NCBI GenBank assembly: GCA_021773015.1
Contig: JAJFKW010000001.1
Coordinates: 992,001 to 1,056,000 of the forward strand
Direction: 5' to 3'
Source: Woeseia sp.
Lineage (GTDB): Bacteria > Pseudomonadota > Gammaproteobacteria > Steroidobacterales > Woeseiaceae
Length of the DNA stretch: 64,000 nt
Below the pieces are notes generated by a model. The model was not told the DNA's origin. It saw nothing but the letters and a program-made list of their open reading frames with translations, and did no database searches. How positions within the stretch are numbered: the stretch's first letter is position 1; the number at the start of each line of letters is the position of its first letter. The translations under genes and the position numbers were made by a program. Positions 32,032 through 35,239 of the stretch are shown in pieces.

Positions 32032-32320
32032 GCAGTAGATAGTCATGCAACCGTTCGCACGGCGATTTTCTAGATTGCTGCTGCATTGCTCGAATCTTAA
32101 ATTTTTGCGCGCGTAAATCTGTCGGTGCTATTGTCATGTTGAGGCGGCCGCGCGCGAGCCTGCACAAACGTGACCGTACAGGCATTTCAACTGTGCACCC
32201 CGTCACAAATTCCGAATCTTGTCGTGGTTGAGAGGCATATCGACACGGGTGGCAGCATATACTTGACTACGGCGATGCTCAGCGTAGGAAATTAAACATA
32301 AGCCGCACAAGGAGGATGAA

Positions 32321-35239
32321 GTGGCGTTGGACCAGTACAAGACACAAATACTGTTATTACACAGTCAGCAAAGTACCTTGGATAATTTGAGCACTGGATT
32401 CAACGATCAGTATTCGGTTCACTTGGCTACCAGCGGAACTGAAGCGCTGAACATCTTTAGCGAAACGCCGGTGCACGTTATCGTCTCGGCACAAGACTTG
32501 CCAGGAATGAGCGGCTTGGACGCGCTTCGAGAAGCGAAAAAGCGTTCGCCGGATACGATCGGCATTTTGCTCGCCGGGACCGCACAAGATGATGGTCTCG
32601 AGGCATTGGTTGGCGAGCAAGAAGTTTTTCAAATAGTACGTGGTGAAATTGCGCCCGACGCGCTACGTTCCCTTATAGATTCCGCGACCAAAAGCGCACG
32701 AATGTTGGCGCTCGCGAAATCCGCGAACGACACCTCCGCAGACCCAGATCAATTGACTGGCGAACACATCGTGATGGAGACGTCCGAAAACGGCGCATCC
32801 ATCGTCAGCGACGGTACTGGTCGCATGCCCGCTCTGAGACCGGAGAAAATTTCGGTCATTCCGGACGCTGGTGGCCAAAGCGTTGATGTTTTGGTGTTGA
32901 CCAAAGACGAAGAATTCCTGGTTACGATTCGAGAGTCGTCGCGAGGACTTCACAACGTTTATCACGCTGTTACGCCAACCCAAGCAAACGAAATTGTTCG
33001 AAAAAACAAGATCGGCGTTTTGGTTACGGACGCTGCAATGGTCGGCTCGAACATCGAAGTTCTAAATCAAAAGCTACGGGAATCGTCGCCGCGTCTGGTT
33101 GCTGTAGTCGCGGGTCGTCGAGATGACGGCGAGCTCCTAATGGATCTAATCAATCGCGGTCAGGTATATCGATTCCTATTGAAGCCGGTATCGCCAGGAC
33201 GCGCGCGCCTCGCGATTGAAGCCTCAGTTAAGCATCACTTGGAAGCTGCTGACAAAGCATTCAAACCTAGAAATGACGAAGGCAGCACGAGCAATAACCC
33301 GCCTGCGAAATCGCCACCGCAGAGTAAACCCGTCGCTAAAGCCGCACCGGAGCCGAGTCCCGCGAGAAAACCGGATCGGCCAGCCGCTCCACCGCCGGTG
33401 ACAGAGAGTCCGGTCGTCGAGCAACCCGCAATGACGGCCTCTCGTGACGACTCGTTAGTTAGCGAAGGCTTAGAGGAAGCGTTTAGCGAGGGCGGCGGCT
33501 TCGCAGAAACTGTAACCGGTCTCGCTGCAAACGTCGGCAAGAAATTTAGCAGGTCAGCAAAGCCGGAAAACTCAGCGGAGACAGAAGCCGCAACTCTTTC
33601 AGAGTCATCTTCGGATGGTGGCGCATTTGCTAGCCCCAAAATTATCGGCATAGCAGCGGGCGTTTTGCTTTCGCTCGGTGCCGCAGGTTGGTATTTTTAC
33701 TCGGGCGACAGCGAGACAACGGCAGAGACCGTGCAGGATCAACAAAACTTGCCGACGGTGGTCGAATCCGACGTCCTGTTGCCTCCGAGCAACTCTCCAA
33801 TTGTAGACCCTGCACCATCGTCAACAGATGTTTTGGAAGCTGCCAGAGCCAGGAGCGATGGAGGTCAACTGGTCGCTCCGGAAGGTGACAACGCAGTCGA
33901 GCTGTACTTGAGCGCGCTAGCATCGTCACCGAACGATCTTGAAATTCAAAGCGAACTGAATGATGTGGTCGAACGCGTTGTTGGAATTGCGGAAACCGCA
34001 ATCTTGGAGCAAAGACTCGACGATGCAGCAACGGCATTGCACATGATTGAATTGGCCAGCCCAGAAAACCCCAGACTATCGTTTCTCAGCGCCCAGTTAA
34101 CGCAGATCCAACTGCGAACTACCATCGATGATGCCCGTGCAGCCATACGTGAAAATCGATTCGAAGATGCCGGCGCGTTAATTTTGCAGGCGGACGGCCT
34201 TGCCGGGGCGGGATCCAGCGAAGTCGATTTGCTCGCTCAGGAACTTGCGGCTGCCCGCAGCGAACAACAAGTTGGTCAAGTACTCGAACTTGCAACGGCA
34301 CGTGTGGAACAGAATCGACTAATAACGCCGGCAAATGATAACGCTCGATACTATTATGAATTAGCGCTAAGCAATGACCCCGAAAATACACAAGCGCGGC
34401 AGGGCCTAAGCGTAGTAGCCGGAAAATTGGTACTGCAAGCCCGTACGGCGATTGACAACGGGCAGTTGAACGATGCTGAAATCTTATTGAGTAGCGCAAG
34501 AGCGCTGGACAGCGGAAGCGATGAAATCGCCGCCGCCAGCACTGTGCTCGCAGATGCGCGGGCGAAAATTGTAGCGGACCAACGTCGCCGTGAAGCGCAG
34601 CGACTACAAAGAATTGAACAGGAGCGCCTGGCAGCTGAAGCTGAAGCAGAGGCTCAAAGATTGCAACAGCAGGCTGCCGCGGCCGATTCGACAACCAGTC
34701 AGACAGACGAAGTCACAGCAAAATTCGGGCCAGCCACTGGCGGGTCGTCGTCCGCAATTGATCGCAGTGCAGACAACACATCACCGCCGCCTAACGAAAG
34801 TCGCTCCAACGTCAGCGCAGTCAATACGAACGCGTTGCCAGAAGACGGACCTGTCCAGCTCAGTGCAAATAATGCCAGCGGCGGCGCCGAACAAGCACCA
34901 CTTGCTACGGATAATTCACAGAGCTTGGCTGTGCAGGTTGCGGCGCCGAGGCAACCGGAGGTTGTTGCTGTAAGCACCTTGACGCGTATCAATTATGTGT
35001 CGCCAAAATATCCGCGCTCGGCGCAACGTCGCAATGTGACCGGCAGTGTAGATGTTATGTTCACGGTTAGCCGAAACGGCACGGTCACCGACATTGAGGT
35101 ACTGGACTCGGCGCCAGGCACGGTTTTCGATCAAGCGGCAATGGATGCCGTCGCGAAATGGCGTTTTGAGCCGTCGCTCGACAACGGCCAGGCAGTGGAG
35201 AAACGCACCGCAGTGCGACTCTCGTTTGACCTGCAGTAA
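32321..35239 (+). CDS. Receiver-like domains, membrane segment, helical repeats and TonB C-terminal domain in one protein
   Basis: A 972-residue protein starting at GTG 32321, with AAGGAGG at 32309-32315. Residues 1-127 look like a CheY-type receiver, but the phosphoacceptor position is Ala57 (VIVSAQDLPGMSG) and the lysine region is eroded. Residues about 187-312 are a second receiver with Asp237 (VTDAAMVG) and Lys288-Pro (FLLKPV) kept. A Pro/Ala-rich linker leads to one membrane helix (about 441-462, IIGIAAGVLLSLGAAGWYFYS). The part after it, presumably periplasmic, holds TPR-like helical repeats (about 515-755), a charged coiled coil (756-790), a low-complexity stretch and a TonB C-terminal domain (about 884-972, with YVSPKYPRSAQ and VAKWRFEPSLDNGQ). 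No ExbB, ExbD or sensor kinase gene is nearby. Function is unknown. Confidence 0.85.
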   Translation: MALDQYKTQILLLHSQQSTLDNLSTGFNDQYSVHLATSGTEALNIFSETPVHVIVSAQDLPGMSGLDALREAKKRSPDTIGILLAGTAQDDGLEALVGEQEVFQIVRGEIAPDALRSLIDSATKSARMLALAKSANDTSADPDQLTGEHIVMETSENGASIVSDGTGRMPALRPEKISVIPDAGGQSVDVLVLTKDEEFLVTIRESSRGLHNVYHAVTPTQANEIVRKNKIGVLVTDAAMVGSNIEVLNQKLRESSPRLVAVVAGRRDDGELLMDLINRGQVYRFLLKPVSPGRARLAIEASVKHHLEAADKAFKPRNDEGSTSNNPPAKSPPQSKPVAKAAPEPSPARKPDRPAAPPPVTESPVVEQPAMTASRDDSLVSEGLEEAFSEGGGFAETVTGLAANVGKKFSRSAKPENSAETEAATLSESSSDGGAFASPKIIGIAAGVLLSLGAAGWYFYSGDSETTAETVQDQQNLPTVVESDVLLPPSNSPIVDPAPSSTDVLEAARARSDGGQLVAPEGDNAVELYLSALASSPNDLEIQSELNDVVERVVGIAETAILEQRLDDAATALHMIELASPENPRLSFLSAQLTQIQLRTTIDDARAAIRENRFEDAGALILQADGLAGAGSSEVDLLAQELAAARSEQQVGQVLELATARVEQNRLITPANDNARYYYELALSNDPENTQARQGLSVVAGKLVLQARTAIDNGQLNDAEILLSSARALDSGSDEIAAASTVLADARAKIVADQRRREAQRLQRIEQERLAAEAEAEAQRLQQQAAAADSTTSQTDEVTAKFGPATGGSSSAIDRSADNTSPPPNESRSNVSAVNTNALPEDGPVQLSANNASGGAEQAPLATDNSQSLAVQVAAPRQPEVVAVSTLTRINYVSPKYPRSAQRRNVTGSVDVMFTVSRNGTVTDIEVLDSAPGTVFDQAAMDAVAKWRFEPSLDNGQAVEKRTAVRLSFDLQ

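Follow-up and report, generated by a model that had tools for sequence, protein, structure and literature searches.

PleD of Caulobacter (REC-pseudoREC-GGDEF) carries two receiver domains in tandem, the second of which is degenerate. Phosphorylation occurs on REC1, and a diguanylate cyclase is the output. TonB energy transducers, such as those of E. coli and Pseudomonas, are built from one membrane helix, a periplasmic linker, and a TonB C-terminal domain. We know of no mechanism that lets a phosphorelay in bacteria act on a TonB-type protein directly, and we found none in the open-access literature, in which a search for the combination of receiver and TonB domains likewise returned nothing relevant.

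Receivers that keep the (beta-alpha)5 fold and lack at least one active-site residue are defined as pseudo-receivers, and in several characterized examples regulation comes from the binding of a partner or ligand (PMC12632262). On the TonB side, a histidine in the membrane helix is essential for Ton/Tol activity, and TonB and TolA need it for contact with ExbB and TolQ (PMC12215075).

Here, we analyze a gene of Woeseia sp. that encodes both kinds of module in a single chain. It lies in a 64-kb stretch of DNA, called the window below, whose positions are used throughout unless another locus is named. Like PleD, the product has tandem receivers with a degenerate second domain; unlike PleD, it is degenerate in both, and its output is a membrane-TPR-TonB arm. 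Its single membrane helix, periplasmic linker, and C-terminal domain are those of a TonB transducer. It differs from one, however, in its large cytoplasmic receiver module, in having a TPR solenoid instead of a simple Pro-rich spacer in the periplasm, and in lacking both a Ser-xxx-His motif and an ExbBD neighbor. Judged from its sequence and predicted structure, the fusion protein would most likely be a scaffold that works without phosphorylation and connects the outer membrane with a conserved partner in the cytoplasm.

Domain organization and predicted structure

The reading frame at positions 32321 to 35239 (+ strand) is open throughout and encodes 972 amino acids. It starts with GTG, 5 nt downstream of a Shine-Dalgarno sequence, AGGAGG, read at 32310 to 32315 (+). 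Pfam recognizes Response_reg twice (E = 4e-13) and TonB_C at residues 894 to 971 (E = 7e-21); a TPR_19 match to the repeats is weak, and Pfam TPR falls below the cutoff. Together with matches across the family, these hits give the order REC1-REC2-TM-TPR-TonB_C. The preliminary description had proposed two receivers, a membrane helix, helical repeats, and a TonB C-terminal domain, an order on which Pfam, hydropathy, and two AlphaFold models built from alignments of the protein's own family all agree.

The model of residues 1 to 321 contains receiver folds at about 8 to 130 and 189 to 308, as expected from that description, with a disordered linker between them. Its best PDB matches are PleD (2v0n; E = 1e-10), which ranks as the best fold match, HupR, and 3kcn. 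The closest single receivers, by sequence and by fold, are of the HupR or HD-GYP type (2jk1, 3kcn, 2rjn, and 3hv2), from which the fusion differs in having no enzymatic or DNA-binding output and in the loss of its catalytic residues. Receiver 1 spans residues 8 to 130 (32342 to 32710, +) and receiver 2 residues 188 to 312 (32882 to 33256, +). The linker between them (residues 131 to 187; 32711 to 32881, +) has no predicted structure, since its pLDDT is below 50; yet its mean identity in the family is 67%, with near-invariant SANDT and HIVMETSENG motifs.

A variable Pro/Ala-rich linker, predicted to be cytoplasmic (residues 318 to 430; 33272 to 33610, +; 32% mean identity), leads to the membrane helix at residues 438 to 460 (33632 to 33700, +). 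By hydropathy, exactly one helix occurs at this place in 48/48 family members, and its N-terminal side is the more positively charged in 41 of the 48. The membrane helix and the cytoplasmic location of the receivers that were initially proposed are thus both predicted. Beyond the membrane, residues 503 to 793 (33827 to 34699, +) are modeled with a pLDDT of about 97 as a TPR-like solenoid of repeated helix pairs ending in a long helix. Foldseek matches of the solenoid to BamD and to consensus TPR proteins are weak but significant. What had been called a coiled coil is, in the model, this one long helix (about 734 to 793), followed by a disordered periplasmic linker (residues 796 to 874; 34706 to 34942, +; pLDDT below 50); residues 741 to 880 have a mean identity of 30%. 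The TonB C-terminal domain (residues 885 to 972; 34973 to 35236, +) can be overlaid on the TonB domain of Pseudomonas in its complex with FoxA (6i97_D) with an rmsd of 1.1 Å and a TMt of 0.90. Both the Pfam match and the fold therefore place it in the TonB family, and the preliminary assignment of this end of the protein stands.

Distribution and conservation in the Woeseiaceae

A search for the protein across genomes identified a family-wide gene: matches were found in 91 of 107 Woeseiaceae genomes, some of the matches being fragments cut off where a contig ends, and there was no match in one small-genome genus. Flanks were read in five relatives; the gene adjoins thrS in each of them, and glnS is close by. 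It is followed by a TetR gene in four of these, and in the fifth the contig ends.

Conservation among 48 relatives is uneven along the chain. Mean identity is 77% for the whole of receiver 2, 72% for receiver 1, 65% for TonB_C, 55% for the repeats, and 40% for the membrane helix, and it drops to about 30% in the Pro/Ala-rich and periplasmic linkers. The best-conserved stretch of the protein is the beta4-alpha4-beta5-alpha5 block of receiver 2 (residues 256 to 310; 33086 to 33250, +), at 92%, which is probably a docking surface.

Another family of the order has proteins of 653 to 655 amino acids (L097 8531 to 10498 and L098 8648 to 10609) that likewise join an REC2-like domain, a membrane helix, repeats, and TonB_C in one chain. 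Unlike the fusion, they have a single pseudo-receiver, which also lacks the Lys, and no thrS in the flanks read.

Receiver active sites

The five catalytic positions (DD, D, T/S, and K) were placed by alignment to the solved receivers HupR, 2rjn, and 3hv2. Receiver 1 has none of these residues: His14, Ser15, Ala57, Ala85, and Gly108 occupy the five positions, and the same holds in nearly all of the 48 relatives. Ala57 (32489 to 32491, +), at the phospho-acceptor position, is Ala in 46/47 relatives. Receiver 2 retains Asp237 and Lys288, each in 48/48, and Asp196 is also invariant. Its acid pair is replaced in every relative by Thr or Ser plus a basic residue or Gln (here, Thr194 and Lys195), and the Thr/Ser position is Ala (Ala264 here) in all 48. 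Ala57, Asp237, and Lys288 are therefore as first described; beyond that description, all five catalytic residues are missing from receiver 1 and three of the five from receiver 2. Neither is catalytically competent by its residues, and both are pseudo-receivers in the sense defined above.

Phosphorylation of Asp237 is unlikely, since no copy of receiver 2 has the Mg2+-binding acid pair or the Thr/Ser. We go no further than unlikely because some receivers can still be phosphorylated after substitution or loss of DD or T (PMC12632262). The invariant Asp237, Asp196, and Lys288 may have a structural or ligand-related role.

Membrane helix and ExbBD coupling

No histidine is present in the membrane helix of any of the 48 fusion proteins, which thus lack the Ser-xxx-His motif of TonB and TolA. 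Among the proteins of the unfused operon described below, the helix has a histidine in 1/21, at the periplasmic edge. In the 64-kb window there are no ExbB, ExbD, or TonB-dependent receptor genes, and no kinase occurs among the neighbors of the fusion gene examined at 22 to 45 kb, in agreement with what had been reported for this region. Several ExbB/ExbD genes are found elsewhere in the same genome, where exbB and exbD have another TonB gene as a neighbor (C1:348-350 kb). The genome encodes 53 TonB-dependent receptor barrels as against 8 TonB_C matches.

Proton-driven energizing by ExbBD is unlikely, since the membrane helix lacks the TonB/TolA histidine, and the fusion is probably not an ordinary energy transducer. 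Its TonB domain looks fully functional, and contact with ExbBD may be made by another route.

An unfused operon in the same genome and order

Via the other TonB_C proteins of the same genome, we reached a locus at which genes for a histidine kinase, a 440-amino-acid two-receiver regulator, and a 449-amino-acid TM-TPR-TonB_C protein stand directly in series (L119 4330 to 9063, equivalent to G000:C1 ~735329-740062). It lies outside the window, about 285 kb from the fusion gene. The kinase has a weak DAHL-like sensor match, and the best NCBIfam match of its core is T2SS_HK (NF038348), below the cutoff. We found no description of this operon in the open-access literature.

A regulator search combined with reading of the flanks, in which reading frames were picked by a simple script, found the three genes adjacent at 23 loci, spread over five families of the order. 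For two loci, the search itself supplied the position of the regulator, and at one locus a contig end truncates the kinase. REC1 of the regulators has an intact set of Asp, Asp, Asp, Thr, and Lys in 22/22 read, including Asp at the position of Ala57, and the REC2 acid pair is missing at 22 loci, as in the fusion. The kinase H-box is conserved in 21/21. By sequence, these regulators thus have the phosphorylatable REC1 and degenerate REC2 of a PleD-like module, which the fusion does not. At four loci, all in one other family of the order, the three genes are followed by a gene for an additional protein with TonB_C, about 365 to 380 amino acids long and with a signal-peptide-like start (L168 4460 to 5551, L172 3390 to 4499, L174 8733 to 9872, and L175 2179 to 3288).

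The operon has the domain order of the fusion, spread over two genes. In profile comparisons, the fusion receivers align with the operon regulator over 302 columns (E = 9e-44), and the fusion repeats align with the operon TonB-like protein over 237 columns (E = 1e-14). Since both operon proteins align along their length with the fusion, the window gene is, on these comparisons, the fused counterpart of the response regulator and the TonB-like protein. The two arrangements differ in that the operon has separate regulator and TonB-like genes, a kinase gene ahead of them, and a fully catalytic REC1.

Evolution of the fusion and the operon

Pairs of a kinase and an REC-pseudoREC regulator with no TonB gene are common across the class Gammaproteobacteria, and REC1 is intact in all 13 that were read. 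The second receiver has Glu at the Asp position in 8/13. At L212, L214 to L218, L220 to L222, L224, and L225, the pairs have no recognized output domain. Outside the order, a TonB gene stands beside such a pair at one inspected locus only: in a different family of the class, L218 encodes a kinase, a regulator, and a shorter TonB_C protein, possibly an independent link between a kinase-regulator pair and TonB.

In receiver trees, the fusions form one clade and the operon regulators another; these are sister clades, and the class-wide pairs fall outside them. The fusion clade had low support in the first tree (bootstrap 52) and an SH-aLRT value of 99 in the second. thrS, which adjoins the fusion in the Woeseiaceae, lies close to the operon as well at four loci in another family, which suggests that fusion and operon come from one ancestral locus. 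An unconstrained tree places the fusion as a sister group instead of as a positional ortholog inside the thrS-linked operon clade, and the latter placement is not rejected (p-AU 0.43).

Taken at the level of sequence, both halves of the fusion share descent with the operon proteins. A fusion event is favored over a splitting event, because unfused genes and receivers with an intact active site occur outside the fusion clade. As read from the alignments, the catalytic residues of REC1 are lost in the fusion only, and the REC2 acid pair is missing in both forms.

Possible functions of the fusion protein

The preliminary description proposed that a cytoplasmic phosphorylation signal might control energy transfer or partner choice at the outer membrane. 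Part of this is supported. The chain connects receivers on the cytoplasmic side, by way of the membrane helix, with a domain of the TonB type, and the unfused operon, which occurs in this genome and in five families, is independent evidence that the combination has meaning and is tied to phospho-signaling. Control through Asp237 is not supported, since active-site residues are missing. The invariance of this residue and Lys288 and the intact kinase and REC1 of the operon speak for a kinase that would phosphorylate Asp237 and so control the TonB half; yet three catalytic residues are replaced in receiver 2 and all five in receiver 1, no kinase lies beside the gene, and in the operon, whose REC2 lacks the acid pair too, phosphorylation would go to REC1. 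We regard such control as quite improbable. Control of energy transfer is also weak, given the absence of the histidine. That the protein is a true energy-transducing TonB, driven by an ExbBD pair encoded elsewhere in the genome, with the receivers choosing the receptors served, would agree with the intact C-terminal domain, the numerous receptor barrels, and the several ExbB/ExbD genes. It is nonetheless unlikely: the residue essential for Ton/Tol activity (PMC12215075) is absent from a helix that is only 40% conserved, whereas it is present in three of the genome's four short proteins of the TonB type, and no ExbBD gene is nearby.

Signaling might instead run inward, with the TonB domain sensing the state of a receptor or of the envelope and the pseudo-receivers relaying it to a kinase or another partner, for example, by sequestering the kinase or regulator of the operon. 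Regulation of known pseudo-receivers by partners or ligands (PMC12632262), the docking face of REC2 as the best-conserved part of the protein, and the related operon in the same genome all speak for this possibility, which we consider doubtful but worth keeping in view. Against it, most genomes of the family have the fusion and lack the operon at the thresholds used, and hence the operon kinase is not a general partner of the fusion. A decaying, functionless relic would account for the lost catalytic residues but is highly improbable for a gene that is kept in 91 of 107 genomes, has a fixed place beside thrS, and retains mean identities of 92% (REC2 block) and 65% (TonB_C).

We therefore prefer, at about an even chance of being right, a fused REC-pseudoREC regulator and trans-envelope TPR-TonB_C protein whose phospho-switch has decayed and which would serve as a fixed docking platform with no proton-driven energizing. 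In the operon, the kinase would phosphorylate REC1 of the regulator, and the phosphorylated regulator, as gene order and the existence of the fusion suggest, would act on the short-tailed TM-TPR-TonB protein and not on DNA. Fusion would have made the contact between regulator and TonB-like protein permanent, after which the phospho-switch could decay. The fused receivers would then form a fixed, PleD-stem-like platform for dimerization and docking: the conserved alpha4-beta5-alpha5 face of REC2 would hold a cytoplasmic partner, and the periplasmic arm and TonB domain would hold a partner in the outer membrane or periplasm. The invariance of Asp237 and Lys288 counts against a scaffold of this kind, as it would be odd if their chemistry were irrelevant.

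More tentatively, and with rather less confidence, a trans-envelope TonB-type arm may itself be the output of a two-component system, in which a signal passes from the kinase through the REC-pseudoREC regulator to the TM-TPR-TonB protein and changes the outer membrane from inside. The Woeseiaceae would have hard-wired this system by fusion and discarded its phospho-switch.

How pseudo-receivers work has been named as an open question (PMC12632262), and the presence of the same module with and without an active site in one genome offers a natural experiment on it. The operon and its fused counterpart provide a testable case of inside-out signaling to the outer membrane in a marine-sediment group. 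Overall, they point to an undescribed linkage of intracellular signals to the outer surface.
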